Shown here: positions 27,731 to 62,400 of the stretch, piece by piece | Numbering within the stretch: position 1 is the stretch's first letter | Layout of the letters: the number at the start of each line of letters is the position of its first letter | Origin: Isoetes taiwanensis | Lineage: Eukaryota; Streptophyta; Lycopodiopsida; Isoetales; Isoetaceae | Assembly (NCBI GenBank): GCA_021234155.1 | Contig: JAJEKV010000071.1 | Span: 1,871,138 to 1,935,137, forward strand | DNA length: 64,000 bases | Direction of reading: 5' to 3' | Made by a program: the position numbers and the translations under genes | The notes under the pieces: generated by a model | The model's input: the letters and a program-made list of their open reading frames with translations, nothing else | Told to the model about the DNA's origin: nothing | Database searches by the model: none

Positions 27731-27939
27731 CTAAAAGTCCAGCATGATGTATGCCATTTGACAACGGTAAGACACAGCCATCAATAGCTCCACATTTTCC
27801 TGAGGTAAGCTCCATAATTTGAGGCAAAGAATCCATATGCAAATGGATACACACTTGCTCTATTTTTCAACAAACAAAGAAATCCAAAAACCAGATGTAG
27901 GATCTATATCTGAGAAGATGAACTGAACTCAGCAGAGCC

Positions 27940-28400
27940 TGCCTATAGCATGCTGTTCAGCATAAAGTAGGACCTAATCAGTATGAAGATTAACTGAAAA
28001 GCTTCAGCTTGTAGCATGCCGTTCCAGCCAAGAAAGAGGTCGGATTTGCAAAGTATGAAAAAGCTCCCAAAATCCGAATCAAATCAGTATTAAGATTAAC
28101 TCAGAAGCATCTGCTTATAGCATGTCATTCCAGCCAAGAAAGATGCCGGATTTGCAGAACATGAACTCTAAAGCTTCAGCTTGTAGCATGCCGTTCCAGC
28201 CAAGAAAGAGGCCGGATTTGCAAAGTATGAAAACGCCCCTTAAGAAAAATATTCAAGGCATAATCCGAACCTAATCAATATGAAGATTAACTTAGAAGAT
28301 TCAGCTTGTAACATGCCGTTCCAGCCAAGAACGAGGCCGGATTTGCAAAATACGAAAAATCCCTTTATGAAAAATATTCAAGGCAAAATTCGGAATCAAA
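27940..28400. repeat. Degenerate sub-repeats within the unit
   Basis: The phrase TAGCATGCCGTTCCAGCC followed by AAGAAAGAGGCCGGATTTGC occurs four to five times with small changes, about 60-120 bp apart, each time near an AAGATTAACT word. The same cluster is present in copies 2 and 3 (near 30840-31290 and 33740-34190). Confidence 0.8.
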
Positions 28401-29588
28401 TATGCTCTGCAAGATATTCTTGGGAAGAGACCACATAAAGCTGGTGGAATATTCCCTTAGCCTCCCATCATAATTATGAAGGCCACTTAGGTATAACCAT
28501 AATGCTCAGTTATGTAAATGAATGCCTACGAAATTAGCTATACATATTGCCATGGAAGTATTCCTCTAAAAAAAATGCCATGGCATATATTATGCCCATA
28601 TCAGGACAATGGATTTGCCACATAAGCAAATTGATGCCTATGTCGGTCTGGATTACTATTAAGCCATGTGAGTGTACACATTAAGGACTAAATCTAGATA
28701 CTCAAGTTATCCTTATAGCAATTGCACAAGAATTTCCAAGTCCACCTGCCTAGGAGGGATAGTCAACACAAAGGTTTACTCCCTCACGGGTGCTATTCAG
28801 TTACATTCATGTAATATCAGTAAGAGAAGCTAACAAGTAGCATGCATATATAAAAAAAACCCTACCTCCTACCATAAGGAGAGGCCAAGATTCTTCCTGC
28901 AACACAGTTTTCATAGGGATGACAGACCCCTACAACTGCAGGAATCATGCCTCACCTCATGAAAACTGTTTGCCAATGCTTGAAGATAGTACAAAAACAA
29001 AAAATATGTGATCACAGAGCTTAAGGAACCTCCGTTTCCTTTTAGCAATAGAAACTTAGAATGAAAGTAACACTACCTCAAATTGAAAAGTAGTTGTTGC
29101 GAACTTGCATTAGCACCTGGAATCAAACCGAATTCCAGCAAACAGACGTATCATCAGACGGCATGAACATAAGCCATGTGGCTACGTAGGAACTTCATTG
29201 TTCCAAAGCTCATCCATATTTTAAATAGCAAGCCAAGTGGCAATGGAGGACAACAGTCCATGTATGTGTTTTCAGTCAAATGGCACACTGTGCCAGATGG
29301 CAAACAATGACATCTGGGTCTTTCAATTTTGCATCTTGTCAAAGCCTCAGCTCACGAGTTCTGAGTTCCATTGGAATCACTATTTTGAACTCAAACTCTT
29401 CTTGATTCTCATATTCTGCCATTAATCATGCATCAGAAATATATGGAATTTAAAAAAATTCAATGCAAGTGCAAAGATATATCCGAAGAAACCTAAGCAT
29501 TAATATATAATCGAAAGGATAAGAAACCTTAACCAAGGAAATATGGCAGCACTGATAAGACCAATGCACAGAAGTGTCATAAAAAAAA

Positions 29589-32486: not shown

Positions 32487-34690
32487 CCCGCTTGAACTAG
32501 TTAAACCTAGCACAAACATCAGCATTGGTCAATCCCTCTGCTGTCTTATCTGGCCATACAAGGACTTTTCAATCCAGGATGGTACCATAAATCCAGGGAA
32601 AACAGTTAACTACTAGTAATCTTCATAATACAATCACAAAGACTTGAAGTCCAAATATCATAAACACCCAAATGGACAACATTTCTCAAGCTCAATAAGT
32701 ACCTTAGCTCAATAAATACCTTAGGACAGTAAACCATTGATGTATAAGAAAACATAGTTACATAAGTGTAACTAGTACACTATGTCGTGCCATATAAGAT
32801 CCCTGTTTTCTCATGTATGAGTAAGATAGTTTTGGACAGCCAACATTCTATATCAAGGCTAAACTTTTCAGCCATCATGGCAATCCTAGGAAAGAGTATC
32901 AGTTCACAAAACATTTATAACAACCATATAGAGTACCAATTTGATGTAATCATTTAAACTGCATCAGATGTGCCAAGCTCCAGTCCCCATTTGCATGTCA
33001 ACTCCTAAGAACTCCTAATACACTGGACAAAAGGAAAACATTAAGAGGAGAAGCCCGTACCTGCAGCCAATCAATACATCATTAGCCTGATAAGGGTAAA
33101 GATGCAAGGGCCAAAAGGTACCTTAGGCTTCTCGGTTATTAACCGGTCACCTAATGTAGTCCTTTTGCCCAAAGATCAAAAATATCTTAGAATCTATTGA
33201 CATAAATCTTGACAAATAAGAGAACATAACCAATATATTGGAAACAAAAATAGCAAATTACCGAGTGGTTCAGAGGCAGATTCTGCCATAAGCTAAATAT
33301 AAGCAATTAACAGGAAAAGAGGCATTTAACAGTAATTAGCATAGAAGCATCAAAGTGCTGCTAGCAATTTTTTTTAGCAAGTGCATGCATAAGCAAATCC
33401 AGTACAAGCATACCCATTATGTCATACCTGAATATATGGAAATGCATTGCATTACCTGGTTATTTGTAGAATTAGACCCATAGTCTTCTTCTTGCATTTG
33501 AGTAATATAAGCAGAGCAGCTAGCATTGTCTAAAAGTCCAAAGATGATGTATGCCATTTGACAACCAGAAGACACACGACCATCAATAGCTCCACATTTT
33601 CCTGAGGTAAGCTCCATAATTTGAGGCAAAGAATCCATATGCAAATGGATACACACTTGCTCTATTTTTCAACAAACAAAGAAATCCAAAAACCAGATGT
33701 GGATCTATATCTGAAAAGATGAACTGAACTCAGCAGAGCCTGCCTATAGCATGCTGTTCAACATAAAGTAGGACCTAATCAGTATGAAGATTAAGCGAAA
33801 AGCTTCACGACTTGTAGCATGCCGCTCCAGCCAAGAAAGAGGCCGGATTTGCAAAGTATGAAAAAGCTCCCAAAATCCGAATCAAATCAGTATGAAGATT
33901 AACTCAGAAGCATCTGCTTATAGCATGTCGTTCCAGCCAAGAAAGATGCCGGATTTGCAGAACATGAACTCTAAAGCTTCAGCTTGTAGCATGCCGTTCC
34001 AGCCAAGAAAGAGGCCAGATTTGCAAAGTATGAAAACGCCCCTTAAGAAAAATATTCAAGGCATAATCCGAACCTAATCAATATGAAGATTAACTTAGAA
34101 GATTCAGCTTGTAACATGCCGTTCCAGCCAAGAACGAGGCCGGATTTGCAAAATACGAAAAATCCCTTTATGAAAAATATTCAAGGCAAAATTCGGAATC
34201 AAATATGCTCTGCAAGATATTCTTGGGAAGAGACCACATAAAGCTGATGGAATATTCCCTTAGCCTCCCATCATAATTATGAAGGCCACTTAGGTATAAC
34301 CATAATGCTCAGTTATGTAAATGAATGCCTACGAAATTAGCTATACATATTGCCATGGAAGTATTCCTCTAAAAAAAACGCCATGGTTTCTCTATGCATA
34401 TATTATGCCCATATCAGGACAATGGATTTGCCACATAAGCAAATTGATGCCTATGTCGGTCTGGATTACTATTAAGCCATGTGAGTGTACACATTAAGGA
34501 CTAAATCTAGATACTCAAGTTATCCTTATAGCAATTGCACAAAAATTTCCAAGTCCACCTGCCCAGGAGGGATAGTCAACACAAAGGTTTACTCCCTCAC
34601 GGGTGCTATTCAGTTACATTCATGTAATATCAGTAAGAGAAGCTAACAAGTAGCATGCATATATAAAAAAAAAAAAAAAAAAAAAAAAAA
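32487..34690. repeat. Tandem 2.9-kb unit, truncated copy 3
   Basis: Matches the first 2.18 kb of the unit and stops at GCATGCATATAT followed by a 26-base A-run (34665-34690). In copies 1 and 2 the same place has a TATAAAAAAAA word followed by the remaining 0.7 kb. Truncation therefore occurred at an internal A-run. Confidence 0.92.
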
Positions 34691-42100: not shown

Positions 42101-42105
42101 TGCAT
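42101..42105 (+). repeat. Target-site duplication of LTR element, left copy
   Basis: TGCAT, repeated at 55332-55336. Confidence 0.85.
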
Positions 42106-43756
42106 TGTGACGCTCCCTGCTAAACATACGGCGCCCAGCCGTACACTCGGCAGGAAATCCCCCGTCCGGCTCAACAACCGCACGGGCCCTTCGTCTACCC
42201 CGCACTCTGAGGTGATCCCTAGTGCGGGGAGGGAACACGAAGGTGTCTTGCGCGCCCTTCCCCTATGGGCTCCTATAACAGCGGAAGCGATAACACGTCA
42301 GAACTAGCATCAAACATATACAAATACTACCTCGAGGGGTAGTGCATCACACATATACCAATACAAAGATGATAAGCACAAACCGTGAAACATGAGAGCT
42401 CCTACCCCGGCTCAGACTCATAAGGAGGATGACTAACCGGCTAGGCCTCAAGATAGAGCAGACCGAGTCATGGCAATGGCGAGGGCTGGCATAGAACAAT
42501 GGCTAGGGTTGACCACTCCATCCGCCCCTCCTGTGCATACTTTGGATGGGCTAAATCAGGCTCGCATGACTCTAGCCTTCCGGATCACGCAATCCCATGG
42601 CATCACCCATCGGGACTACCTGTGTTGCATCTCCCTCGGGTCCGATGAGGCAGGGAAGGGTTGCATCTCCCTCCCCCGTGGTCTAGAGGTTCCGTGGCGG
42701 CTAGAGAATCGTGGACGCACACGCGATTCGCACCGACTTTAACCCCCAAAACGAGAGCCAAGCCAACACTTGCAGCCCCGAGAGGCAGGCGACACCATTG
42801 CCCCTGGGAGGTGTGGGACCCATGCTCGCCCACACTAAGTGACCCCACCATAAGCCTAGCTCACTATGGGATCCCCCCAAAGCCCCCCACTCGGCAGGGA
42901 TCCCCCACCACCTTCCCTCTAGCCCCGTTGTGTGGTGCTGAGTCATATCATAGCCTCGATAGCCTGGTGGGCTCCTATGCACAGGCCGCAACTAATAGGA
43001 ACTAAGGGATCTACTCTAGGAGCATACTACTTATGGCCCTAGGTCTCTACCCCCCTTCCCAAAACAAGAGGAGCAAACATGATCAACCATCATCACATAA
43101 TCATCACATCATGAGAATAATCATAAGAAGAACATCTTAACCTAATCATACAAATCTAACTAATGGTTAGGGTTCATTGATTAGGGTTCAAGATGTTGAA
43201 TACGGGTTCTAGGATGGCTCTACTCTAGATACAAGATACTAGCACATCCGGAATGCTAAGCCCAGATGAGCTATCACAACTACTACCCTACATACCTGCT
43301 CCTGATGCTCTCCCTCCAGATCCGTGTGCCTCCATGGTCTTCGACTCACGTGATGCTGCTCCTGCTCCAAGAACGAGTCTACCCCTCGGCCTGGGGCCAT
43401 TTGCACCAGCCTATGCCACAGCAAACGATGTTCGAAACGGGGTTTCGAACGAGTAGGTGAGTCTCTAGGTGCTAGGGCTGGAAAAAGGCCTAGGGTTAGG
43501 GTTTAGGCCTATATAAGTTAGGTCCACCTAGGATGCCACGTGGCACCAATCGGGTGAGTCCTGTGTGGCGGGTGCCCAATAGGTTAAGGCCACGTGGATA
43601 ATGGTCTTAGCCTATGGTTGGCTAAGTTATGTGAATAACTTGGCCATGCCCCCTAGTGCCACAATCTATGGTATACAAGGCTATGAAGATAGACTTGTAT
43701 GGTGGCGGATCCAGGAATATACGTATTTATGGCGTATATTCCCTTGGACCGTCACA
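42106..43756 (-). repeat. 3' LTR (1651 bp)
   Basis: TGTGAC..GTCACA ends. The first 290 bp and last 350 bp are almost identical to the other LTR, while the middle carries clustered small differences. A CTATATAAG word near 43510 and telomere-like TTAGGGTTTAGG near 43490 occur in both LTRs. Confidence 0.93.
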
Positions 43757-43768
43757 TTCTCCCCCCCT
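43757..43768 (-). promoter_or_regulatory. Polypurine tract
   Basis: Reverse strand AAGGGGGGAGAA immediately upstream of the 3' LTR; it primes plus-strand DNA synthesis. Confidence 0.85.
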
Positions 43769-44594
43769 TAGGACAATGCTGTCCTCAGCATTAAGCGCTT
43801 AAGGTGATTTAACCTACCTTATGCCTGCACAAGGGACAACATGTCATAACCTTTAGCTTATTATAGTAATCAAGTTTTATTAGTTCAAGTCAAAATTTAG
43901 GCTATATTTGTACTTATACAAAATTATATAGCCTTAACACGGTTATTTCTTACGATAATTCAAACATTATTATAAGAGTTATTATCTTCTCGTAATGCGC
44001 TCCTCGTTGAAGTCCGCCTTCTACTTGCCTACAAAAGGAGCACATTACGTTAGTTTAGTTAATAATTTGTGGTTTTAGGGGACCACCCCCCTTACCTCCT
44101 TGAGCCGAACTACTGACTCAAGGTTGTCCTACTACCTTGTCCAAGATCATGGCCCTTTCGGATTTGAGCTTAAGGATCATTTAAGATGCTCCCATCGTAA
44201 GCCCATGATCGAAAGTGCTACCTTGTACTTTCGGTTACTTGGTTGCCGAAAGTACCCCTAGTGCATCATGCCCCACGGGTTTGAAGCTAGGGAACGCCTC
44301 ACGATCCCATCATCGCAAGATGATCACTTTAACCCTCACCATGACCCTCCTACGGCCAGGTGTGCGTACCCCGCATCGTGGCATAGAGATCATCCGATCG
44401 ATGTCCCATCATCGCCCACCATGCCTCATTCCTCACTCACATGACCCTAAAGGTCATGTGCACCTCTTGGTGCGTGTGGCCTAGAGAATGCCCTAAAGGC
44501 GTATCCCATCATCGCCCACACGATCCAAAGTTCTGGCACATGCACCCTACTAACTAGAATGCATGCGCCAGGCTTAAGGCTAACTAACAACATA

Positions 44595-45356
44595 CTAGCT
44601 AACCACCGGCAAGTCGGGATTCGACCAAGCCCGGAGACGACTTCGACCATCAAACTCCTTCATAAACTCTGGGTATTGCTTCTCCAAATCTTGCTTCAAT
44701 ACCCATGTCGCATCTTCCACGGGTAAGTGCTTCCACTTAACCAAATATTGGAGGAACTGAGACCTCCTAGTCTTCTTGAATGACTTATCAAGAAGTAATT
44801 CGGGCACTATTTCTACTTGCTCCTCCGTCATTTCCAACAAGGTTGGAGTATCCAAAACCTCCTCAGGGTTAGGATTGTGCCTTTTTAATAAACTTACGTG
44901 GAAGACCTTGTGAACTTTGAGATGGGCCGGAAGATCCAACTTGTAGGCTTGGGAGCCCACTCTCTCCAAAATCTTGAACGGACCAGCCCACCTAGGGGCA
45001 AGCTTCTTACAACTCCCAATCCGAAGCTTGGCTTGCTTCACCTTGATCTTCAACCAAACGCTATCGCCTACCTTGAATTCTCTTACGGTCCTGTGCTTGT
45101 CGGCTACACTCTTCTGCCGACTTCTTGCTGCTAATAAGTAACCCCTTACTTCTTCCACTAGCTGCTGCATATCCCCTAGCATCTGCTGGGATACTTCCAC
45201 CTTCGACACAGGATTGTGCCAGGTATCCGGGGTTAAGCACTGGTACCCGTAATTTACCATAAAAGGAGACATCTGAGATGACTCTTGCTTGGCACTATTG
45301 TAGGCGAATTCCACCAAGTGGATGTACTCATCCCACTTGGACTGCTTGTTCCACAC
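44595..45356 (-). CDS. Integrase C-terminal part with chromodomain
   Basis: Open frame of about 253 codons. WDEYIHLVEFAYNSAKQESS and SPFMVNYGYQ are the end of the integrase core; then RSRQKSVADKHR, FKVGDSVWLKIK and KLAPRWAGPFKILERVGS form the GPF/Y-type DNA-binding part, and VHKVFHVSLLKRH the usual end. The last 60 residues (LLDKSFKKTRRSQFLQYLVK, WKHLPVEDATWVLKQDLEKQ) are a chromodomain with two of the aromatic cage positions visible. Chromovirus chromodomains bind modified histone H3 tails and direct insertion to heterochromatin. The core domain upstream is broken by frameshifts. Confidence 0.92.
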   Translation of the reverse strand: MWNKQSKWDEYIHLVEFAYNSAKQESSQMSPFMVNYGYQCLTPDTWHNPVSKVEVSQQMLGDMQQLVEEVRGYLLAARSRQKSVADKHRTVREFKVGDSVWLKIKVKQAKLRIGSCKKLAPRWAGPFKILERVGSQAYKLDLPAHLKVHKVFHVSLLKRHNPNPEEVLDTPTLLEMTEEQVEIVPELLLDKSFKKTRRSQFLQYLVKWKHLPVEDATWVLKQDLEKQYPEFMKEFDGRSRLRAWSNPDLPVVS

Positions 45357-45642
45357 ATAGCTTCAAGCATGTCTTCAATGATCCGATTCGTCCCCTCCGT
45401 CCCGGCCATCTGTTTGGGGATGATATGCCGTGCTCATGGAGAGCTTCGTCCCGAATGGTGCTAAAGAGATCCCGCCAAAAGGCACTCATAAACTTAGAAT
45501 CTCTATCGATATTATCTCCCGAGGCATGCCATGGAGTCTAAAAAATCTCCCTTACAAATAACTTGGCAAAGATCTAATGCGGTGTGGGTAGTCTTGCAAG
45601 GCACAAAATGTGCCATCTTAGATAACTTGTCTACGACAACCA

Positions 45643-45948
45643 TCAATGCATCCTTGCCTCAAGAGTTCTAGGGAGCCACAGAATGAAATCCATGCTTATG
45701 ACCTCCCACTTCGCATTTGGCACCCCCAATGGCTCAAGAGCACGGAATCGAACTGGGTTGCTCCGCTTTGGTCTGCCGACATAACCGGCAATCCCGAATA
45801 TATATGCAGCTATCGCCTCTTCATTCCTGGCCGAAGTAACTACTTGAATCTTGAAATAGGTCTTCATGAAGCCAAGATGCCCCGCTATTGGGCTGTTATG
45901 TGTGTCATGAAGAATTAGCTTCCTTACCCCCGATGATTGGGCACACAC
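45643..45948 (-). pseudogene. Integrase N-terminal part
   Basis: HDTHNSPIAGHLGFMKTY is the HHCC zinc-binding start of integrase, with the distal Cys pair lost; WEVISMDFILWLP is the start of the catalytic core with its first Asp. Frameshifts precede and follow it. Confidence 0.8.
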
Positions 45949-46065
45949 AACTTATGCTTGTGATACAACGGGTTGCCTTCCTTCTTATAATGCTTGAAGG
46001 CTTCCCGCTCTTTATCCATTCGCTTCCTTGGAAAGGCTTTCCCACACCTCCTTGAAGTCCACATC

Positions 46066-46856
46066 CGTTGGCAAGGACTCCTCAATCTTCTTGCCAAATT
46101 CACTTTCGAAGAGTGGAAATCGTGATTACAATGCGCCCTTGTCCGAAATGGCCTCCCGGAGAGGGCATCCGCTACAACATTAAGCTTGCGGGCTTATATA
46201 CAATATCAAAATCATACTCCTCAAGAAATTCCATCCACCTCCTTTGCCTTAAATTGAGGAGTGGCTGGGTAAAAGATATCGCAGACTCGTGATCAAAGAT
46301 CCAACTGAAACTTCCTCCCCAAAGCAAATAATGCCTCCATATCCTTAATGCCCGACAATGGCTAGCAGCTCCCCGATCATGGGTTGGGTAGCGTTGTTTC
46401 GGCGTCGTTCATCTTCTTCGAGTCGAGGCTTGACTACCCTTCCTTCTTGCATCAAGCTCTGTTGCTATCTTACTTGCATCATTTGCTATCAACTTATCTT
46501 TACTGGTCCGGGAGAACCAAAGATCGTGTTTGTTGTTAAGGCCTCCTTAAGCTTCTCGAAGGAAGCTTGGACTTTCTAACCAATGACTAGTCCAATCCTT
46601 AATCTTCTTGGCCTTGGTGAGGTCCGGCTGAGGGGACGCCCACTTAGCAAAGTCCTTACTTAACTTTCTCGTAATATCCCGCCAACCCGAGAAAGCTTCT
46701 TACTTACGCCACATTCCTTGAGTGGCCAATCAACTATTGCCTCAATCTTAGATGGATCTCGTGGAGATTCCCTCGGATGTTACTACATGCCCCAAATACT
46801 CCACTCTACTGTTGCAAAGTGGCACTTAGAGAGCTTCCCATACAACCGATGACGCC
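46066..46856 (-). pseudogene. RT thumb and RNase H remnants
   Basis: Decayed reverse-strand sequence between the RT ORF and integrase. Pieces such as GLAGYY and FAKW..S..DLTKAKK can be read across frames. No continuous ORF remains. Confidence 0.55.
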
Positions 46857-47429
46857 TCAACTTTTCCAAGACTTTCCCCGAGATGTCGACAATCTTTGCT
46901 CAAGGGACTTGCTGTAGATTAGAATGTCGTCGAAGAAGACAATAACAAACTCATCCAAGAAGTCTCTGAAGATGTCGTTCATGAGGCGCATAAATGTTGC
47001 TGGAGCGTTCGATAGTCCAAAGGGCATTACTGTAAACTCAAAATGACCATACCGCGTTCTGAAAGCGGTCTTATGGATATCCTCTTCTTTTATTCTTATC
47101 TGATGGTATCCTGACCTTAAATCAATTTTAGAGAATACCTTTGCTCCTTGTAACTGGTCCATTAGGTCATCTGCCCTTGGCAATGCATATTTGTTCTTTA
47201 TCGTCTGCTTATTGAGCTGGCGATAGTCTATGCACATTCTTAAGCTCCCATCTTTCTTCTTCACAAAGAGTATAGGTGCTCCGAAAGGAGACACACTTGC
47301 TCTTATAAAGCCAAGCTCAAGCAATTCCTGAAGCTGCTTCTTGAGCTCAATCAATTCAGGGGTGCTCATTCTATATGGCGCCTTACTGGTAGGCTTCGCA
47401 TCTGGAGCCAACGTGATCTCACATTCCAC
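46857..47429 (-). CDS. Reverse transcriptase (partial open frame)
   Basis: About 190 codons: [78 protein letters not shown] (first catalytic Asp), [20 protein letters not shown] and [15 protein letters not shown] (FDD box for the usual YVDD). All core palm motifs are present; the frame ends soon after the active site. Confidence 0.93.
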
Positions 47430-47654
47430 ACCCCTATAAGGTGGCAGCTGCCGGATTTCATCCGGAAATACATCCTTGAACTCGGAAATAAGCCTTGCTA
47501 TCCGCTTTTGGGCAATTGATTTCCCTTTGGGTCACTTCCATCCCGCTTGCCCGCTCAAGCGGATTCCATCCTCAAGATGTAGTCCACCTTATTCCTTTCT
47601 ATACTCTTCCTTAGCCGCTTCAAAGAGATACACCGCATGGGAGAATCTAGCTTC

Positions 47655-48078
47655 TTACCTTTCACTATCAATTTTTGCCGCCCGCGCCGTCATGGTGACT
47701 TCTGTCCGGGCCGCTTGATCAATCATGGCTTTGGCTGGCTTCAAGAATTCCATCCCCACTATAAGATCGTATCTTCCGATATCCATGACTTCCGCCCCCA
47801 TCGGCCACTTAGCCCCACTAAGGTCTATGTCAAAGATGATTCTCCTACCCTTAGTGTGCCGAATGGCGCCGTTTGCCATAGCCACTGGCCTTGGCTTAGA
47901 CTTCAATACCTTGTTCTTCATTAAGGCAGACCAACCTAGGAGATGCAAAATTGTGAGAGCTACACGTATCTATGAGGACTACATATGGATTACTATCTAT
48001 GATCCCATCAACCGATGACGGTCGGTCGATTCTCAATATCACCTGTCTCAATGTTTGCACATATGTGGCACTCACCAT
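47655..48078 (-). pseudogene. Aspartic protease remnant
   Basis: YVVLIDTCSSHNFASPRL is the retroviral-type protease active site with DTC in place of DTG; the following region (YDLIVGMEFLKPAKA, KRRIIFDIDLSG-like pieces in another frame) is the rest of the protease fold. Gly to Cys at the active site and frame breaks indicate an inactive enzyme. Confidence 0.75.
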
Positions 48079-49240
48079 CTATGAAGTCCTGGGCCTCCTG
48101 CTGGTCGCCGCCCCGGCCCGCCACGTTGGGGAGTCCCAATCGACCCGCCCGCCAAGGCTGCCCTCGCATGACGAATGGGCAATCATGCGTTGATTGCCCG
48201 GGCTGGAAGCACTGAAACATAACTTTTCTCAATGCATTCTGTCTCTTTTCCTTTCGGCATCGCCTAGGAGACGCTTTGAGAGCACCGCCCCGATGCATTC
48301 TCTCGCGACTACGGTCCCCAAAAGCTTTGTTCGACCCTTACCTTTGCTGCTGACCTCGATGGTGTGGCTGGCTGATTGCTTACCCCGATATTGCCCCCGA
48401 GCACGCCTCGAACTCTTACCCCCGAAGGTTGATCGCTTCTCTGGCTGGAGTTCTTTGGTGCCTCCTCCAAACTTATAGCTTTATCTTCGGCCCCTCGAAT
48501 CGACCTTGGGTTGATTGCTCTAACACGCCTCTTGATATTGATTTGTTCAACCCCTCAATGTAGGTATCCACCGCTTGCCTTTTCGAGACTCGGGAACATG
48601 GAGCCTAAGCCTCATGAATTCTTCGGTATACTTAGCCACTGATAAGCTACCCTGATTCAACCTGTAAAACTGCTGGATCTGTCTACTAGTATGAGACCTT
48701 GGCACATAGTGCTTGCGGAAAGCCTTGCTGAAGGTCTTAAACCCGCAATTGTTCCTCTTGACTTGTTAGACTTAGCATATCCCTTCCACCAGATCCTTGC
48801 CGGTCCAATAAGGTTAGCTGTAGCAACTTTCCCTATGTCCTTGTCTTTCATACCGTAGGAGTTACCAAATTCTTCCATTTCATCAAGCCATGCTTCAGCC
48901 TCCATGCCCGACCGTCTTTCCCCAGAACGGCCCGGCTTCCTTTGTCTTCCATACGTTGCTCATAGCACTATCTACCTTTTTCGATAGTCATCCGCCTCTT
49001 TCTTGCCCTTTTCCTTACTCTAGATGTGTGACCGATTTGACCGTTTGAGCTAGAGCTGTCCCCCTTTGGAAGAACCGCCCCCGATGAGCTGGAGCTAGAT
49101 GATGATGGGCTCTCGGTTCTTCTCTTCCTTCTCCTATCCCCGCGTTCCCCCAGGTTGCCCTCCCCTTCTGGCCGAGGGCCTTCGCCGCCACCCTCGGGAA
49201 CACAAGGTGGAGGTGGAGGACCATCTTCTGATGCGTTCAT
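48079..49240 (-). pseudogene. gag remnants
   Basis: Frame 49240-48968 is Pro/Ser/Arg-rich (MNASEDGPPPPPCVPEGG, KRRTESPSSSSSSSSG). Frame 48905-48657 has the gag core (MEAEAWLDEMEEFGNSYGM, ATANLIGPARIWWKG). Near 48210 FQCFQPGQSTHDCPF is a degraded CCHC knuckle. Pieces are separated by frameshifts. Confidence 0.7.
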
Positions 49241-50948
49241 CGGGAGGTGTCGCCCGAGTTGATGAGGTGTTGCATCGGTTCCTCATCCGCACCAACCTTG
49301 CGTTGGATCGCCCTCGGTGACATATCCCCGCTTTCGAAGTCCTCTTGTTCTCTCGCCAAACAAATTCCTTGGTACCCAATTGCGTTGTCGGTGGCCGGGT
49401 CTTGAGATCCCCGCGACTTGAGTTCCTTCTTTGCAAGGATTGATCATCAATACATGTTATTTGGGTTAGATGTTGATCAATCTTACTTGTAATTGAATTA
49501 TCTTTATTAGTTATAAAGAAATCATACAAAGCCTTGCATTTATAAAACAGTTAATAGCCATTAATACATAAGGATTACATGATAGGGTAGATATGTCTTA
49601 GCACAATGGGTACAAGAAAACATTTAGCACACAACTTAAGAAAATTTTACAACTATTCAATGGCCTCCCGAAAGCCTGAAGAGGTTCTTGACATCCCTGA
49701 ATCGGAGGCCTTTGCCGAGGTTGCGCAAGATGTTCCTTGTCGATCTTCCTTCAAGTGCTCGGGCCATCTCCGGGTTCGAAGTTCTCGTGTCATTTCGCTA
49801 CCACCGAAAAGTGTTGCATCCCTAAGGTGCCCTCGCAAAGTCGAGGCAATGGGTTTTGACGGCCCCTGTTGAAAAGGATGATGTGGTCGGCATGGGCGTA
49901 TATCTTCGAATGCTGCCCAAAGCCGGAGAGCGCTATGAGAAGTGCCACGGATTCCTCCCCCCTTGGGCTGAACTCCTTGTGGAAGACTATCATTTGCCCT
50001 TGGCTGAGGGCTGGAAGATAGTATCGAAGTGTCGTGCCCTTCCCTGTACCTCGCGATCCAATGCCCTTCCTTTGAGCCGCTTCGGGCCAGAGGCATCCCG
50101 CTGCGATAAGATCTTCATGATCTCTCCACATCTTTGGTTGCGTTGTCCGGTTGATGCCGCTGGACCCTTCCCTCATGCTCTGGCTCGAACCGGGTCGGCT
50201 TGAGCTTGGGCCCCTCCCCGGTTTGTAGAGTGTGCTCAGATCTGCTGGAACTCCTCCTCCGAGATGATAGGTTCTCTTTGTCGATAGATCTCCCTTATCT
50301 GGCGATAGGCTGCTATATCCGACATTGTCTCCCCGCATAAGAGTGTCTCTCCGCCAGGCTCCTTGGAATCTCCCGGTATGAGTAGTCGATGAAGTCTGCG
50401 CTCTTCCCATGTGCTATCATGCCTAAGAGCTCGTCAATTCAAGACCACGATTTCCCGGCAATAAGACAAGTTGAGGATGTGGATTTTGCAAAATATACTC
50501 CTCCCCGCCGATGACTATCGGCGACAGAAGGCCGGATGCCGGGAGGCTCGGTAGCTCTTTCGATGTCGCCGTCGTCGTGCCTCGACATGTACCTCTGCAT
50601 CCTTGTTGCCTCCCCGCTCTCCCATTCTCGGGTTTTGCCCCTAATTTTTCGTAGTCTTCATGGATCTGCAGAGATGGTGCCCCGACGTCGTGCCATGGTA
50701 TTCATAAAGGAGGACTCTATGTTCGAGGATTTGATCCCGGGCCCTACTGTATCAAGTGGCGCTAAGTCTAAGGGCTGAATGAAGGTTCTCCTACTTTGTT
50801 GATTGACTTATAGTGCATGAAAAGGGCAAGGGGCTGGGTGCGGGACGAAATGTACCTATGCCTATTGTGTCTGCAGGGTCATATAATCGGGCATGGTCCT
50901 AGTCCTATCCCATAGTCGCTTCTTGCCTTTGGATCCCGCCAACTCGAC
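49241..50948 (-). pseudogene. Unassigned decayed coding region upstream of gag
   Basis: Many short, Arg/Ser-rich reverse frames (for example 50410-49790 and 50096-49653) interrupted by stops. No motif recognised. It may be the N-terminal part of gag or an additional ORF. Confidence 0.3.
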
Positions 50949-51392
50949 CTAAGACTTGGGCGAAGTGTCTAGAGAAACCCAATTCCATCCCCTAGGAGGT
51001 AGTCTAACTTCCCAAGGCAGGACTTGCTGGTCATATTGGCACATAATGTCTGTGTAGTAGGGTGTTCTAGTCAGAGTTGCATGCAGATCAAACAAGTGGT
51101 CGAACACGAGAGAAGGCTTGATCTGGTGAAGTCGATGGATATGGCTTAAAGCATTGTACCATCTCTCAAAGTTCTTTGGGCCATTGAGTAGGAAAGGGTG
51201 CAGAAAATGGCTTGCAAAGATCAGTGAAGGATCAGAAAATCGCCTAAGGGGCTGGGAGCAGTTCTGTAGAAGGAAAAATGGCAAATGAGACCTCTTTTTA
51301 TAGACTATGGGTGAGCTCGGGGTTCGTGCAAAAAGGTACCTACCTAAGACGGCCTTGGTTCTATGGCTCTGGGTGTCCAAATGAACTACCAT
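50949..51392 (-). CDS. Unknown ORF between H3-like gene and gag, 147 aa
   Basis: Open frame from the ATG at 51392: starts MVVHLDTQSHRTKAVLGRYL, hydrophobic/aromatic middle (SDPSLIFASHFLHPFLLNGP, NFERWYNALSHIHRLHQIKP) and end VLPWEVRLPPRGWNWVSLD. It has no recognised domain, signal peptide or transmembrane run. It shares the orientation of gag-pol and of the H3-like gene. It is protein-like in composition and unusually long for the surrounding decayed sequence, so it may be an accessory gene of the element, or a chance frame. Confidence 0.4.
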   Translation of the reverse strand: MVVHLDTQSHRTKAVLGRYLFARTPSSPIVYKKRSHLPFFLLQNCSQPLRRFSDPSLIFASHFLHPFLLNGPKNFERWYNALSHIHRLHQIKPSLVFDHLFDLHATLTRTPYYTDIMCQYDQQVLPWEVRLPPRGWNWVSLDTSPKS

Positions 51393-51475
51393 GAAGTGCA
51401 GATTTAAGCAAAACAAAGCAAGAAACACTACATGGCAATTTATTGGATCAAATTTGGCTAATTTGGGTCAAAAAT

Positions 51476-51780
51476 GGGCTGACCCGGGTGAATCCGCGCG
51501 GATGGCCTCCGCGTCGCGGACGCAGACGCGTTTGGCGCGGTCTCACCCGGTTGGCCTATTTTGGAGCCATTTTTGGTCAATTTTGGGAGTTTGAAGATGC
51601 TAACATGGCTAATTGGGCCGATTCTAATCTAACTAGCAACTTATTTTGAGCAAAACTGACACCAAAAAGCATGTTCTTGGGGCGTCCCGGGTGAATCAGC
51701 GAAACGAGCGTCGTCCGGGACGCAGAGGCCATTGGCGCGGTCTCACCCAGTTGGCCCAATTTTCAGCTTTTTTTGATGAT
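51476..51780 (-). repeat. Two GC-rich direct repeats, about 200 bp apart
   Basis: CGCGGTCTCACCCGGTTGGCC (51537) and CGCGGTCTCACCCAGTTGGCC (51736), each preceded by a CCCGGGTGAATC word (near 51486 and 51688) and followed by an AT-rich stretch. They lie between the unknown ORF and the H3-like gene. Confidence 0.7.
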
Positions 51781-51990
51781 TTTTTTTTTGCCAAATTTTC
51801 GTTGTAGTTATGATTTCTAGGGTATTCCTAAGCATACTATGAAGAATTCTACCACAATTGGGTTCTATTTCCTAAATTTCAAGCATCCAACATTTTTCTA
51901 ATTACAGAGGAAAATAACTTTTATATTAATATGGGAAACACAATTACATGAAAATTTAACTTTTCTAACAAAATTTACAAAATTTGAGGC

Positions 51991-53108
51991 CTAGGGCCTC
52001 TCCCTGCGGATCCTCCGTGCTAAGTGAATGTCCTTCGGCATGAGGGTGACTCGCTTAGCATGGATTGCGCAGAGGTTCCCTTCCTCGAAGAGCTGCACCA
52101 GCTCTGCTTCGGCGGCCTCTTGCAGGGCCCGGGTCATTAGAGGGGTAACCCTATAATCGGTCCGGAACTCCTGCATTACTTCCCTAAGGAGACGCTCGAA
52201 GGGCGCCTTCCTTATCAGGAGATTCGTGCACATCTGGAAGTGCCTTATCTCCCTAAACACCCGGGCGTACGTGCTGTTCGGCCCGTGGTGAACCCTCTTG
52301 GGTTTTTCCGGTCTAGGTGGGGGTGGCTTGGGCTGGTTCTTCTTCGGCCTGCCGCCCTCCACAACCCGCTGCACCTCCTGGCGGCAATACCAATCGTTGT
52401 ACCTCGTCCAACGACGGAGGTACTCCTTGTATGCCGCCATTTTGCGCTTAAATTCGCGATCCTGTTGGAGCGCGAATGCCCGCTCCCCTACCTTCTGCTT
52501 CTTCACCACCTTTGGTGGCTCTGGCCACTTCGGGTAGGGTGGCCTCGCATCGGGGTTTGAAGCTTCTCAGAGCGGGCCGGTGTCCCCTTCCTCTTCTTCT
52601 TCCTCCACCTCCTCATGTTGGCGCTGGGGAGGCTCTTCTATGACGACGGTCCTGCGAGGCTCGTCGTTCTTCCTCTTCGTCGCCTTTCCCGGCTCCCTGC
52701 TCGCCCTCTCCCGCTCCCGCTTCTTCACGGCAGCCCTCTCCTCCGGCCATTCATGACCTTTTCCTTACCCTTCTTCTTGGGCCTTTGAAGGGCCCGCTTC
52801 TTCGATGCAGTGCTGGTCTTTGCTCTTCCACCTGTTCTTGACCTGCTCTTCCACCTCGGTGTCCAGAGGCCCGAGAATGGCGGGACTCGCCTGCTTCTCT
52901 GCGTGCCCCGATGACGAATCGCCGCTGGGGCTCTCCTCGGCATCATGGAAGCTCGTCAGTGGTTCTGCTTCGCCGGGCTGGGGACTCCTCATCGCGGGCT
53001 TCTACCGAAGGTGTTCGGGGACCTTCTTGACGCCGCCTGGCCGCCTGCGCCATGGAGAGGGTGGGCCTAGGGCCGATCTTCCCCGTAGGTTTGCTTGGTG
53101 CGTGCCAT
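51991..53108 (-). pseudogene. Histone H3-like gene inside the retrotransposon
   Basis: Reverse strand, about 370 codons in all. The ATG at 53108 reads MARTKQTYGEDRP: the first seven residues equal the canonical H3 start (Lys4 context), then it diverges, so the H3 ARKS motif with Lys9 is absent. After an indel a long linker follows in shifting frames: Ser/Glu-rich (SPSGDSSSGHAEKQASP), Lys/Arg-rich (KRALQRPKKKGKEK, RAAVKKRERERASREPGK) and Glu-rich (QRQHEEVEEEEEEGD), with an in-frame TGA near 52567. The last 172 codons (52509-51991) are one intact frame: after [20 protein letters not shown] come [67 protein letters not shown] and [16 protein letters not shown]. This is a complete H3 fold (alphaN to alphaC) with the loop 1 length of canonical H3, not the longer CENH3 loop. 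Sense orientation between PBS and gag means it would be transcribed from the 5' LTR. Confidence 0.92.
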
Positions 53109-53671
53109 GTCTTGTGGTTCGGGAAATGGGTGACGTAAGGTCGAGCAAAGAGAGAGGTGGAGGTGAAAGGTTGAGAGAGAGAATGAGGTGTCGATATTTA
53201 AAAAGGAGGGTCCCTAGGAATATTCTCCCACCATAATTACCCCTATTTATTAGCCCCCCTTATTAATTACACCACATTTAGTAATTATTTAATTATTAAG
53301 ATATGTATTACTCCTGTATTAATTCGTATTATACCTAAAATTTTTCGAATTTTCTAATGGTTTGAAGTGCTAATTATGGATTTGCGCCATTTTTCACTCG
53401 GGTCTCCGATTGGTATGATTCTTCGACCCATTTTAGGTGAAATTTGATGCAGATGCATAATTTTCACTCCAAATTTACTAGAAGATGAATTTGACTTACG
53501 CATTCCTTCGTCTAACACTTATCCTAAGTCCTGACCCACTACCTAGGAGAAAAATTTTTCCCCTATTTTCGCGGTTCAACGGTGGAAATGTTTATTTCAC
53601 ACCTCCTATAGGCTTGTTAGACTACTTCCATGGTTATGGTCAGTGCTAGTTCCTGGTCAACCAAGAACATT
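53109..53671 (-). other. Retrotransposon leader between PBS and H3-like gene
   Basis: About 560 bp, AT-rich and noncoding; a short upstream reading of the element RNA before the H3-like ATG. Confidence 0.6.
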
Positions 53672-53683
53672 GCTCTGATACCA
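53672..53683 (-). promoter_or_regulatory. Primer-binding site (initiator tRNA-Met)
   Basis: Reverse strand TGGTATCAGAGC, one base after the 5' LTR end; it is complementary to the 3' end of plant initiator methionine tRNA. Confidence 0.92.
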
Positions 53684-53684
53684 T

Positions 53685-55331
53685 TGTGACGCTCCCTGCT
53701 AAACATACGGCGCCCAGCCGTACACTCGGCAGGAAATCCCCCGTCCGGCTCAACAACCGCACGGGCCCTTCGTCTACCCCGCACTCTGAGGTGATCCCTA
53801 GTGCGGGGAGGGAACACGAAGGTGTCTTGCGCGCCCTTCCCCTATGGGCTCCTATAACAGCGGAAGCGATAACACGTCAGAACTAGCATCAAACATATAC
53901 AAATACTACCTCGAGGGGTAGTGCATCACACATATACCAATACAAAGATGATAAGCACAAACCGTGAAACATGAGAGCTCCTATAAAACTCGGACTCATA
54001 AGGAGGATGACTCTTAGGCTAGGCCTCAAGATAGAGCGTAACCGAGTCATGGCAATGGCTTAGGGTCGGGCATAGAACAATGGCTAGGGTTGACCACTCC
54101 ATCCGCCCCCCGTGCATACTTTGCGGATGGGCTAAATCATACTCGCATGACTCTAGCCTTCCTGGACACGCAATCCCATGGCATCACCCATCGGGGACTA
54201 CTCCGGTGTTGCATCTCCTCGTCCGGGATGAGGCGTGAAGGGTTGCATCTCCCCTTCCTGTGGTCTAGAGGTTCCGTGGGCGCTAGAGAATCGCGGACGC
54301 ACACGATTGCACCGACTTAACCCCCAAAACGAGAGCCAAGCCAACACTTGCAGCCCCAGAGGAGGTGGCGACACCATTGCCCCTGTGAGGTGTCGGACCC
54401 ATGCTCGCCCACACTGAAGTGACCAGACCATAAGCCTAGCTCACTATGGGATCCCCCGGCCCCCACTCGGCAGGGGATCCCCACCACCTTCCCTCTAGCC
54501 CCGTTGTGTGGTGGGCCGAGTCATATCATAGCCTCGATAGCTGGTGGGCTCCTATGCACAAAGCCGCAACTAATAGGAACTAAGGGATCTACTCTAGGAG
54601 CATACTACTTATGGCCCTAGGTCGCTACCCCCTTCCCAAAACAAGAGGAGCAAACATGATCAACCATCATCACATAATCATCACATCATGAGAATAATCA
54701 TAATAAGAGCATCTTAACCTAATCATACAAATCTAACTAATGGTTAGGGTTCGTTGATTAGGGTTCAAGATGTTGGATACGGGTTCTAGGATGGCTCTAC
54801 TCTAGATACAAGATACTAGCACATCCGGAATGCTAAGCCCAGATGAGCTATCACAACTACTACCCTACATACCTGCTCCTCGATGCTCTCCCTCCGGATC
54901 AGGTGTGCCTCCATGGTCTTCGACTCACGTGATCTTTTGCTCTGCTCCAAGAACGAGTCTACCCCCGGGGCCATTTGCAGACCGTCTATGCCACAGCAAA
55001 CGATGTTCGAAACGGGGTTTCGAACGAGTAGGTGAGTCTCTAGGTGCTAGGGCTGGAAAAAGGCCTAGGGTTAGGGTTTAGGCCTATATAAGTTAGGTCC
55101 ACCTAGGATGCCACGTGGCACCAATCGGGTGAGTCCTGTGTGGCGGGTGCCCAATAGGTTAAGGCCACGTGGATAATGGTCTTAGCCTATGGTTGGCTAA
55201 GTTATGTGAATAACTTGGCCATGCCCCCTAGTGCCACAATCTATGGTATACAAGGCTATGAAGATAGACTTGTATGGTGGCGGATCCAGGAATATACGTA
55301 TTTATGGCGTATATTCCCCTGGACCGTCACA
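53685..55331 (-). repeat. 5' LTR (1647 bp)
   Basis: Pairs with 42106-43756. It should contain the promoter that drives the H3-like gene and gag-pol. The differences from the 3' LTR are clustered in the central kilobase. Confidence 0.93.
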
Positions 55332-55336
55332 TGCAT
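55332..55336 (+). repeat. Target-site duplication of LTR element, right copy
   Basis: TGCAT, directly after the LTR end and identical to 42101-42105. Confidence 0.85.
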
Positions 55337-55463: not shown

Positions 55464-57321
55464 CTAATATTCATCATCATCATTTTCATCAGGAGATTCA
55501 GCTCCAACCTCCTCATAATCCTTCTCCAAAGCTGCAAGGTCCTCCCGAGCTTCTGAGAATTCACCTTCCTCCATTCCTTCACCAACATACCAGTGCACAA
55601 ATGCGCGCTTTGAAAACATGAGGTCAAATTTGTGGTTAATACTTGCAAACACCTCAGCAACCGCAGTATTGTTACTGATCATACACACTGCTCGTTGAAT
55701 GCGTGCAAGATCCCCACCTGGGATGACACTTGGAGGCTGGTAATTGATGCCACATTTAAATCCAGTTGGGCACCTATTTAAAATTTCAAAGAAAAAGTAA
55801 GAAAATGGTGCAAGAAGAAAATTAGAAGGCCAAAAAACAACCCAAAAAAAAAAAACAAACAAGCAAACAAACAAAGAAAATATAGATGAAGAAAAAAAAA
55901 ATGGCGCCCTAAAAGATGATGAAACATGAACCCTAAAATTCTAGAGTAGATACTTACCAATCGACGAATTGCACAGTTCTTTTGGTTTTGATAGTTGCAA
56001 CAGCGGCCTGGACATCTTTAGGAGTTAAATCGCCTCTGTACATCATGCAGCAGGCCATATATTTGCCATGGCGAGGATCGCATTTGGCCATCATAGAATT
56101 AGGCTCGAAAACGCTGTTTGTAATTTCTGCAACAGAAAGCTGCTCATGGTATGCCTTCTCGCCGGAAATTACCGGAGCATAAGATGAAAGCATGAAGTGA
56201 ATCCTTGGATATGGCACTAGATTGGTCTGAAATTCTGATATATCCACATTTAGAGCCCCGTCGAACCGTAGCGATGTCGTTAATGAAGAAATAACTTGAG
56301 CTACTAATCTGTTCAGGTTTGTATATGCCGGTCTTTCTATGTCTAGGGATCTTCTGCAAATATCATAAATTGCTTCGTTGTCCAGGAGAATCACAACATC
56401 TGTGTGTTCAATCAAAGAATGCGTGGATAAAACACTGTTATATGGCTCCACAACTGCTGTTGAAATCTGCAGAAACAGGGATTGGAAATGCTTTCTCAAA
56501 AAAGGATGGAAAGTTTTTAGTGCAGAAACAGGGGATTTCCAAATGCCCTTTCTAAATCTAAAAAATTAAAGAAACAGAAATTCAAGCAATCCCCTTACTC
56601 TAGGAGATGGATAAACTGTAAAACCGAGTTTGGATTTCTTGCCAAAGTCGACCGACAGACGTTCCATTAATAAAGAACCCAGGCCGGAACCCGTGCCTCC
56701 ACCTACTGCATTAAAAATAAGAAATCCCTGCAAGCCGGAGCAATTATCCGCAAGCTTTCTGACACGATCAATGCATAGATCAACATTTTCCTTCCCAACT
56801 GCAGAAAGGAAACTTACAATGGTAAGAACAGAGCAATTGAACAAGGATTTTAGGGGCAAATGCATGAATAATTCTTGCCTGTGTAGTGGCCTCGAGCAAA
56901 ATTGTTGGCCGCATCTTCCTTGCCGGAGATTAGCTGCTCCGGATGAAATAATTGTCGATAATTTCCTGTGCGTACTTCATCAATTACTGTAGGCTCTAAA
57001 TCCACCATTATAGCTCTAGGAACATGCTTTCCAGCCGTGGTTTCGCTGAAAAATGTGCTGAAAGAATCTTTCCCAGTACCGGCCGCTTCACTACAAAATC
57101 AACAGCATAATTCCATCAAATTTTACTTCAAAAATAAGCAATCAAGACTCTGCGAAACAGAGCGTTTCTACAGTCTGAGAAAAAGATTAACAAAATTCAG
57201 GGACATACGCAAGAATTCTTCCATCAGGTTGAATGCCATGCTCGAGACAGAAAAGCTCCCAGCAAGCATTTCCTAACTGGATACCTGCCTGGCCGATATG
57301 TATACTGATAATTTCTCGCAT
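55464..57321 (-). CDS. TUA: Alpha-tubulin, five exons, 447 aa
   Basis: Exons 57321-57209, 57090-56879, 56798-56599, 56466-55958 and 55773-55464; the spliced length is 1344 bp with all phases consistent. It starts [20 protein letters not shown] (GTP-binding loop), has [19 protein letters not shown] (tubulin signature), [31 protein letters not shown], the alpha-type insert region near [17 protein letters not shown], and [20 protein letters not shown], ending DENDDDEY with the terminal Tyr. The loop after QPDG reads [14 protein letters not shown], one residue shorter than the usual one and lacking Lys40. Intron 2 uses a GC donor (AG/GCAAG). The product is an alpha subunit of microtubules. No frameshift is present, so this is probably a functional, divergent family member. 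Confidence 0.95.
56799..56878 (-). other. GC-AG intron of alpha-tubulin (intron 2)
   Basis: Donor AG/GCAAG at 56878 and acceptor CTGCAG ending at 56799. Splicing gives [12 protein letters not shown] in phase, matching the family. No GT donor is available at this position. Confidence 0.85.
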
Positions 57322-60108: not shown

Positions 60109-60506
60109 TTTTTTTAACGTCCACGGAGACCAATAGGTCATGGGACCCATACAATGGGCTAGTACAATCATTACTACTAGGGCTAAAAAACCCCTGCCTC
60201 GAAAGGTTTTCAAGGGAAAAACCTTTGCAGTAAAGATGATACTAGACAAGCGGAGGTAATGACTACTGGGGGCTCAGTAATTGCAGACGTTTATCTAGAA
60301 CCTCAAGTATGTATAATGCCAAGTCATGCACAGATGGTGCTCTGAGAAGTTGTGGAAGCGTGGAATGGAATGCCAAGGTCAAAAAATGATTCCGGACTAT
60401 CTCAAAAGGGGCAACTTCGGAAGAGTATGGCTTTCATCTTCAATAACCTATAACCGCAATGTGTACATAGTCTTGCTTCTCGCGGCAATTGCGCGGCCAC
60501 TCCCAT

Positions 60507-61127
60507 CTACTGTCTCAATCCAGAAGAGCTGTGGGACCCCGTGCGAATTGATGCAATAGCTACAAGCTTGTTCCTGGACAATGAAGCAAGCAGATAAGCT
60601 TGGGGCCCTGGTGCCAAGGTGGGACTTATGTGTGCATGATAATGACCAGTTTTCACTTGGGCCAAAGTAACTGCGTCCCATATCTTTTGAGAAAAACGAC
60701 CATTGAGATATTGTTGCAAAAGCCCAGGATCAGAACTGGCAAGCATCAGGCAATGCTCTGGTTGCACAGCCCAACGGGCAAACCATGTAGTGCAATGCTC
60801 TTTCCAACATCGTTTCAAACGCTGAGGAGATTCAGCCATGGCAAGTGCAAGAACAGGATACCTAACATCATCCATGTGGTGCACCTTGCAGATAGAGTGG
60901 AGATGGCGGTTCATGGCAGAATGTTGAAGAGGCCAAAAACTTGTCTCTTGTAAAAGAATAGCATAGGGCACCGTTGTTTTAACTCCGAGGCTGTAAGTGA
61001 GAAAGGACTTTTGCACCCGCTCCAAGCTCTCCCAAGCACTAGCACTAATGGCAGGCCCCCACACTTCAGAACCATACAAAAAAAAGGCTCTACCAAAGCC
61101 GAAACAAGTGGGCTTTCCGCGGGCCAA
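60507..61127 (-). pseudogene. LINE-C protein C-terminal region
   Basis: AFFLYGSEVWGPAISASAWE and LERVQKSFLTYSLGVKTTVP are the post-RT segment seen in many LINE proteins; the rest is helical and unassigned. Frame breaks lie between it and the RT part. Confidence 0.75.
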
Positions 61128-61320
61128 TCATGAATTCTCTTGAAAACAATTGTTTTGCATTGCATAGAGTGCTCTCCATCCAAGCAGACTACCGGCTTGG
61201 TAATACTTCGTTCCCAAAGTGTGTTCTTCTGAATTCTACACCAAGATACTTGTAGCTATCTACAACTTCAACCGGCGGCTATCATAGTGCATAGGGGAAC
61301 ATTGTGACGAGAAGATTGAA

Positions 61321-62204
61321 CTACCAAAAGCTTGGTCTTTTGGAGAGTAACACGCAGACTGTGTTCTTACAAAAACCGTGCGAGCATGTAAATGTTCTTT
61401 GCATACTAGCGGCGGTATGTGCCAGAAGTGAAACATCATCAGCATACATAAGTTGCCTAATGATATAGTGTGCCAAATGTGGACCTCCGCCGCCATGATT
61501 ATCAAGCCATTCTTCCAATTGATCAATGTACAAGCCAAAGAGTGTAGGAGATAAAGTGCAACCACGGCGAACTCCAATATTGCTAGTGATTTGAGTACAC
61601 GATCTTTGGAAATTTAGCAAAACCCTTTCATAGAGCCGATAAACCGCATTTTGAAGATCTTGTGGAACCCCAAGTGCACGCAAAGCCGCCAAAGAAGCTC
61701 GCGTGGTAATTGTATCAAAAGCAGAAGTAAAATCCACAAAGCATATATAGAGGTCTTGTTTCAAACTTCGACTATGTTCAATAAGCATGCGCAATGTGAA
61801 AATATGGTCTATTGTAGAAAGGCATGGACGAAAGCCTGCCTATCCTACAAAGACGCACACAAAGTATGTTACGCCCATGATGTCAACTGCTTCGGTAAAA
61901 GACTGGCTAAGAGCTTTGAAAATATGGAACTTACCGTGATCATGCGATAATTAGAAGGGTCATGCTTATCACCTGCTTTGTAAATTGGTACGACCTTACT
62001 GACAGCCCAAGTTTCTGGCAAGCCTTCTTGCAAAGCTTGATTTAAAAGACTAGTGATGATTGGAAGCAATAGCGGACCCCCCCATTTAAGCAATTCTGCT
62101 TGCAAACCTTGAAGATCAGGAGACTTGCCATTAGATAGATGCCGCAGTCCTTCTTTGACTTCCTCCTCTGTGAATTGAAGAATATCACCTACCAAAGGAG
62201 GCAC
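61321..62204 (-). pseudogene. LINE-C reverse transcriptase
   Basis: Frame 62204-61869 has EEVKEGLRHLSNGKSPDLQG, WAVSKVVPIYKAGDKHDPSN and YRMITVSSIFSKLLASLL; frame 61794-61321 has DLYICFVDFTSAFDTITTRA, GVRRGCTLSPTLFGLYIDQL and IIRQLMYADDVSLLA (YADD active site). One or more indels separate the two frames and another follows the active site. Confidence 0.85.
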
Positions 62205-62235
62205 AGAATTAAGGACCCCAGGATGATCAGGAGGA

Positions 62236-62400
62236 ATAGGATAGGATAGGATAGGATAGAAGGGTTTTTATCGTCCACGGAGACCAATCGGCCTATAGGA
62301 CCCAACAAAATGTCGCAACTTATTACTCTCTGGGTTAAAAAGACCTCGCTTAGAGAGTTTTCGTGGAAAAAATCGTGACAGAAATAAGAGTGTTGTCGAA
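62236..62400 (-). repeat. Second, related LINE 3' end with (AGGAT)n tail
   Basis: TAGGATAGGATAGGATAG (62239-62262) is followed by CGTCCACGGAGACCAATCGG, homologous to CGTCCACGGAGACCAATAGG at 60118. It is the 3' end of a related element, cut off after about 150 bp. Confidence 0.75.

Follow-up and report, generated by a model that had tools for sequence, protein, structure and literature searches.

The closest described relatives of the locus reported here are plant chromoviruses that carry extra open reading frames (ORFs), with which it shares long terminal repeats (LTRs), a tRNA-type primer-binding site (PBS), gag, reverse transcriptase (RT), an integrase with a chromodomain and a 5-bp target-site duplication. 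In a survey of 8453 plant Ty3/gypsy elements, 3372 carry additional ORFs that reach at least 250 codons and are highly heterogeneous (Neumann et al., 2019; PMC6317226, excerpt), and its accessible main text names no histone ORF, the word histone appearing there once, in connection with chromodomain binding. Viral histones, namely single H3 or H4 genes of DNA viruses and the H4 of bracoviruses, offer a second comparison: there, likewise, a parasite gene derives from a core histone of the host, its fold kept and its tail changed (PMC9145170, excerpt). The carriers in that case are DNA viruses or viriforms, and the accessible part of the review does not contain the word retrovirus.

We describe a group of chromodomain LTR retrotransposons whose first gene encodes a divergent histone H3 and is followed by a second ORF (ORF2) and gag-pol. 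In contrast to the extra ORFs of chromoviruses, the 5' extra ORF is here a recognizable core histone under selection. Unlike the viral histones, it is carried by an LTR retroelement, and in place of the H3 tail family A has a long charged tail and family B a different domain. Family A has the MARTK start in common with host H3, and is set apart from plant H3-like variants and CENH3 by a long charged insert and by its location in mobile elements. The first-pass annotation of this DNA knew of no LTR family with such an H3 variant, and an exact-term search of the open-access literature agrees, having returned no description of a histone-encoding LTR retrotransposon; the word histone is absent from the main text of the Isoetes genome papers.

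The window, a stretch of 64,000 nucleotides from Isoetes taiwanensis, contains a whole chromodomain Ty3/gypsy LTR retrotransposon of 13.2 kb on the minus strand (42106..55331). Its 5' LTR (53685..55331, minus strand), which begins TGTGACGG, contains TATATAGG and terminates CGTCACA, is 94.0% identical to the 3' LTR (42106..43756, minus strand), and the complete element is bordered by a 5-bp target-site duplication that reads TGCAT on the plus strand (42101..42105 and 55332..55336). An α-tubulin gene with introns (55464-57320, minus strand) adjoins the element, with some 130 bases between its stop and the 5' LTR. The PBS, TGGTATCAGAGC (53672..53683, minus strand), was read from the sequence, is separated from the end of the 5' LTR by one base and is, we presume, of the initiator-tRNA-Met type. 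A G-rich polypurine tract (PPT) lies directly 5' of the 3' LTR. Downstream of the H3 gene, in sense orientation, are an open piece of RT (46857..47531, minus strand; Pfam RVT_1, E = 1e-30) and an integrase C-terminus with a chromodomain (44595..45362, minus strand; Pfam SH3_Tf2-1, E = 2e-23, and Chromo, E = 2e-11); an integrase zinc-domain match in the same part is under the Pfam cut-off. Gag (48000..49550, minus strand) is decayed, with approximate borders, and was called from a zinc-knuckle-like sequence near 48220, recognized by eye, and from homology to an open relative. The ORF2 region (49650..51190, minus strand), also decayed and with approximate borders, corresponds to about 509 codons in an open relative. 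The element thereby shows features of a chromovirus: a Ty3/gypsy RT, an integrase with a C-terminal chromodomain, LTRs, a target-site duplication, a PBS and a PPT. Its pol contains about seven frame changes over 2.85 kb (frames read by hand from a tblastx comparison with L001). L001 and L002 are two RT matches with Ty3/gypsy pol frames in bacterial metagenome bins, and are probably eukaryotic contamination. Scans against Rfam and for tRNAs gave no matches, and those against NCBIfam only weak ones, all under the cut-off.

The H3 gene itself (ORF1; 51991..53108, minus strand) comprises a MARTKQT start, a charged tail, a linker and an H3 fold, and is broken upstream of 52566. Its last 191 codons (51991..52566, minus strand) are intact and encode a conserved linker, for which a long helix is predicted, followed by the complete H3 fold: the frame of 191 codons plus stop matches Pfam Histone (E = 5e-30), and its residues 80-190 match solved H3 chains in the PDB (E = 3e-32). 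The first-pass annotation had reported a complete H3 fold in a sense-oriented gene between the PBS and gag of a chromovirus, a reading that the features located around the gene bear out. The frame that ends in the fold is 191 rather than 172 codons long, and the MARTKQT placed upstream of it does stand at 53108 but is out of frame with the fold in this copy, where at least two frame breaks and three in-frame stops lie between them when read against open relatives. Searched against the protein database, the 191-residue frame returned general and tandem H3 proteins at 39-68% identity (best 120 of 7085) and the fold alone H3s at 51-70% identity (best 120 of 7062); the linker region alone returned nothing at E <= 1 among 54 candidates. 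In the viral_contigs collection there was no relative of the integrase, the window H3 frame or ORF2, and one match of 37% identity to the family B fold; the plasmid collection gave no relatives.

A search of the plant's own genome (1,658,258,908 bases in 1110 contigs) with the window frame gave at least 150 matches running across linker and fold, 150 having been scored of 11,597 loose candidates. These 150, the window copy included, are 81-100% identical to the window frame and span nearly all 191 residues, down to about 175 in the shortest, and by hand count 123 contain no stop within the match. For 20 high-ranking matches other than the window copy, 10 kb was fetched around each. All 20 have the order 5' LTR, PBS leader, H3, spacer or ORF2 region (the LTR match of L014 is partial), the exact 12-mer TGGTATCAGAGC being present in 15; within the fetched stretch gag was seen downstream in 19 and RT in 15. 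An open frame of 364-372 codons that begins with MARTK is found in 13 of the 20. The position between PBS and gag is thus a property of many copies, and the alternative that an H3 retrocopy landed by chance in a single element, which a lone copy with a target duplication of its own would have indicated, is refuted by the same placement in these 20 and in 36 of the 39 leader-chosen copies described below. A poly(A)-tailed retrocopy in one element was also considered and rejected: a T-run near 51782-51791 is part of a diverged direct repeat, and the arrangement is common to 20/20 copies. This repeat (51475-51784; about 110 bases, 200 apart) lies 3' of the H3 stop and has a similar counterpart in many of the 20 copies.

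Because the first 20 copies are among the best H3 matches and hence biased, a fairer sample was taken by leader DNA alone, consisting of the best 40 of 2,094 candidates minus the window copy (39 copies; 36 newly fetched and three from the first sample). Of these 39 copies, 36 contain the H3 fold; two of the other three retain about half of the gene, and nothing of it appears within the 1.3 kb read of the third. Nine copies have the whole H3 frame open, 30 have it broken or incomplete, and the fold frame is open in 18 (19 in the hand list used for dN/dS, which adds L054, at the coverage limit). Since the fold occurs in 36/39 copies and the whole frame is open in 9/39, the H3 gene is a regular component of the element that, like pol, degenerates once a copy has inserted. 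The proposition of the first-pass annotation that the H3 belongs to an element family therefore holds in copies chosen without regard to H3; the roles that it suggested for the protein, namely marking or opening element chromatin or packaging its DNA, are tentative. When matches were chosen by RT, at least 28 of 149 (window copy dropped) had an H3 match among those listed 4.2-11.3 kb upstream on the same strand, against 0.07 expected by chance, the H3 side being restricted to the 150 scored matches, so that the other 118 RT matches are uninformative either way. The H3-to-RT distance was 4.9-5.1 kb in 21 of these 28, and three further RT matches had a leader match only.

LTR elements are known to capture host genes (PMC6431247, excerpt), and the broken or incomplete frames in the window copy and in 30/39 leader-chosen copies are what would be seen if a captured host H3 had been amplified with the element without benefit and were now decaying. 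The substitution pattern makes such a passenger very improbable. Pooled over the 20 H3-chosen copies, dN/dS is 0.049 for the fold (95% interval 0.022-0.093), 0.063 for the linker and 0.196 for the tail (17 copies), and within lineage A2, one of two lineages of the family A H3 (12 copies), it is 0.064 for the fold. On average 3.6 amino-acid-changing differences separate a pair, whereas about 61 would be expected without selection (230 sites assumed). ORF2, RT and gag-pro have dN/dS of about 0.52-0.54 (20, 16 and 16 of the 20 copies), values to which dead copies and frame noise contribute, and the contrast with the fold is due in part to the choice of copies by H3. In the leader sample, the nine copies with the whole frame open give 0.075 for the fold (0.037-0.140), and the 19 copies with the fold frame open give 0.111 for the fold, 0.27 for the linker and 0.33 for the tail; pooled values are 0.31-0.36, with 0.36 for the fold over 36 copies, dead copies and frame noise being included. 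The H3 protein is under strong purifying selection. Between lineages A1 and A2 the fold has a dN of 0.13 with dS saturated, which together with ratios of 0.05-0.075 at a dS of about 0.3 rules out that the gene was carried neutrally over such a span. That conversion by host H3 genes produced the low ratios as an artefact is countered by a fold identity to host H3 of only 59/91.

The family A fold consists of 87 residues and aligns without gaps to H3 in all 32 copies fetched by H3. Arg63, Lys64, Arg69, Arg72, Cys110, His113, Lys115, Thr118, Leu126 and Arg129 are kept in 32/32 copies, and Arg83 and Asp123 in 31/32. We take these to be H3 contacts to DNA, to H4 and to the second H3, most of which would then be retained. 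Phe84 is replaced by Val or Ile and Lys56 by Met or Gln in 32/32 copies, both positions presumably mattering for the grip on DNA. Of eight positions that we assume to contact H4, three (Val71, Ile74 and Leu82) are changed. Nucleosomes containing the family A H3, if formed, may be weak, because Phe84 and Lys56 are replaced and three H4-contact positions are changed. These same replacements, the changes at residues 87-90 and the many copies would suit a poison directed at the host, in which a defective H3 displaces host H3 or titrates H4 and chaperones, so that heterochromatin is loosened genome-wide with no preference for the element. Strong purifying selection over the whole fold, DNA-contact residues included, suits a working particle better than a sink, and we consider this explanation improbable.

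Residues 87-90, which bear on the choice of chaperone, read in the 32 copies Leu; Met or Thr; Thr (Ser twice, Arg once); and Arg (Gln once). Residues 31, 41, 87 and 90 define H3.1 versus H3.3 (PMC4357034, excerpt), and at residues 87 and 90, the two compared, the corresponding signatures are absent from family A, residue 87 being Leu in 32/32 copies and residue 90 Arg in 31/32 and Gln in 1/32; two host genes (L082 and L083) bear the H3.1A and H3.3 signatures of the same source. In the fold, an A1 copy matches host H3 at 59/91 residues and an A2 copy at 56/91. Against the 59/91 with host H3, the fold shares 44/91 residues with a CENH3 sequence. The MARTK start is found in plant CENH3 as well, and the EIRHFQ and TNLLI motifs of family A are shared with Arabidopsis CENH3. 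An origin from CENH3 was nevertheless rejected: the loop-1 extension of CENH3 is missing from 32/32 copies, and in a tree family A does not group with the one CENH3 included (a long branch whose placement is unsure). The tree places family A in one clade (100/100) on a long stem and is otherwise poorly resolved, with 11 of 18 inner branches open.

The tail of family A is long and very charged. In the 21 of 32 copies with a MARTK start it begins ARTKQTARK (ten copies), ARTKQTYRK (ten) or ARTKRTYRK (one) and is divergent thereafter; residues 1-9 of H3 are thus kept except at position 7 (Ala or Tyr), and the part from Lys14 to Lys36 is gone. An AlphaFold model of the window frame, computed with 21 H3s, shows a linker helix of 42 residues followed by the H3 helices, at low confidence (mean pLDDT 63). 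Such a tail and predicted helix before the fold, in an element that also encodes a chromodomain, would be in keeping with a packaging or integration factor: the H3 might coat the element cDNA or sit in the particle or pre-integration complex, with the tail and helix contacting Gag or integrase, and thereby provide compacted nuclear entry or guidance by chromatin type. We judge this unlikely. The kept residues presumed to make H3-H3 contacts favor nucleosomes over free DNA binding. In addition, the first and last aromatic cage residues of the window chromodomain are missing (judged by eye), a pattern termed type II, in which the residues for binding methylated H3K9 are absent (PMC6317226, excerpt). 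A chromodomain that reads the element's own K9-methylated tail is therefore an unlikely arrangement, given that cage residues are missing in the window copy.

From the architecture of the element, which is directly observed, we infer what its H3 may do, and it is quite likely that the protein is a nucleosomal variant serving the element. A separate mRNA could be supplied by a promoter within the leader. A TATA-like block with a presumed initiator region (53173..53204, minus strand), a putative internal promoter, lies some 96-97 nt 5' of the H3 ATG. An alignment of the window leader with those of 20 copies has its best conserved 24-nt stretch about 97 nt 5' of the ATG (23 of 24 columns invariant), within which the TATA-like TTTTTAAATATC is invariant in 12/12 columns; over the whole leader, 331 of 575 columns are invariant in these 21 sequences. 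The longest invariant run falls just after the PBS, outside the promoter-like block. In the window copy no ATG precedes the H3 ATG from the TATA-like block on, and 47 do so from the LTR TATATAGG on. An internal promoter for the H3 gene is the natural reading of this block.

We propose that the H3 gene is expressed as a separate mRNA from this internal promoter, and that the protein would enter the nucleus, pair with host H4 and form nucleosomes that differ from those of the host. With residues 87-90 altered, only the tip of the H3 tail present and a new charged arm added, these nucleosomes might not be served by the host H3.1 machinery. In plants, silencing of elements is maintained through H3.1-linked pathways. 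DDM1 is reported to promote the replacement of H3.3 by H3.1 (PMC10529913, excerpt). Variant nucleosomes might be placed on active or newly integrated copies, which would then be unable to bear the H3.1-type marks that silence elements; this last step is tentative, and we would sooner doubt it than rely on it. The H3 of the element probably acts against host silencing. The explanation as a whole, that of a group of chromodomain LTR elements whose first gene, an H3, is expressed from a promoter of its own and makes nucleosomes unlike those of the host, appears on balance to be the better guess.

The H3 module also varies among elements. MARTK starts occur in 8/12 copies of lineage A2, and in three A2 copies whose lineage was verified from their sequence (L031, L036 and L041) an RT about 5 kb downstream is 92-94% identical to that of the window. 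On this ground elements of a single pol lineage appear to have traded H3 modules. In the RT pairing, the split into A1 and A2 follows rank in the H3 match list, with verification by sequence for the 32 H3-fetched copies. ORF2 lies in sense in the spacer between H3 and gag; it is open over about 509 codons in one copy (L011:4540-6102), is broken in most of the other fetched copies and has no significant match in Pfam or the PDB.

A canonical H3 query against the same genome returned 15 host-type genes at 96-98% identity and at least 135 further matches at 71-86% (150 scored of 9,022), many of these 135 within open frames of more than 400 codons and at least 45 of them of the kind that we call family B. 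In two family B copies read to the stop (L079 and L081), the H3 fold terminates frames (463 and 451 codons) whose N-terminal domain differs from that of family A; a third (L080) shares this N-terminal domain, the fetched piece ending inside the fold. When the N-terminal domain alone was searched, at least 45 of the 150 matches listed were followed, at a distance of 455-936 nt, by a listed H3 match. None of the three copies has a MARTKQT start, and functions of the tail tip are therefore not general. At one locus, L079, a PBS lies 747 nt 5' of the first ATG, the LTR end known from the window element, GGGAGCGTCACA, stands before it, and an ORF beginning 202 nt 3' of the stop aligns with the family A ORF2 (23% identity over 123 residues, E = 3e-5, in a one-to-one comparison; gag and pol fall outside the piece). 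The family B fold is more H3-like than that of family A, and the tree does not join the two; a single capture followed by rapid divergence of A and two separate captures would each fit.

The broadest form of our proposal is an old LTR group with a core histone as first gene, which would form its own nucleosome by way of a dedicated internal promoter, swap or re-tail the module between families and so escape H3.1-based silencing; we regard it as possible and would expect it to fail somewhat more readily than to hold. If it were true, a retroelement would encode its own chromatin. Should the protein make nucleosomes, the element would directly handle the chromatin that it must inhabit, and its H3 would be a natural experiment on which parts of the H3 tail and which chaperone-choice residues plants need for the silencing of elements. 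The locus extends histone capture beyond DNA viruses and makes mobile elements a possible source of divergent H3 genes.

The window contains several other repeats. A large direct repeat (26679-34672) has units of about 2.9 kb that are about 97% identical and contain internal repeats. A Helitron-type element (20385-26114, minus strand) has a Helitron_like_N match and, farther on in sense, an endonuclease-like frame recognized by eye. A plant L1-type LINE (13161-18370, minus strand) includes an open frame of 1225 codons with endonuclease, RT and zf-RVT domains and an upstream DUF4283 frame, and two more LINE-like elements with endonuclease or RT frames are located at 9669-12654 (plus strand) and 60500-62300 (minus strand).
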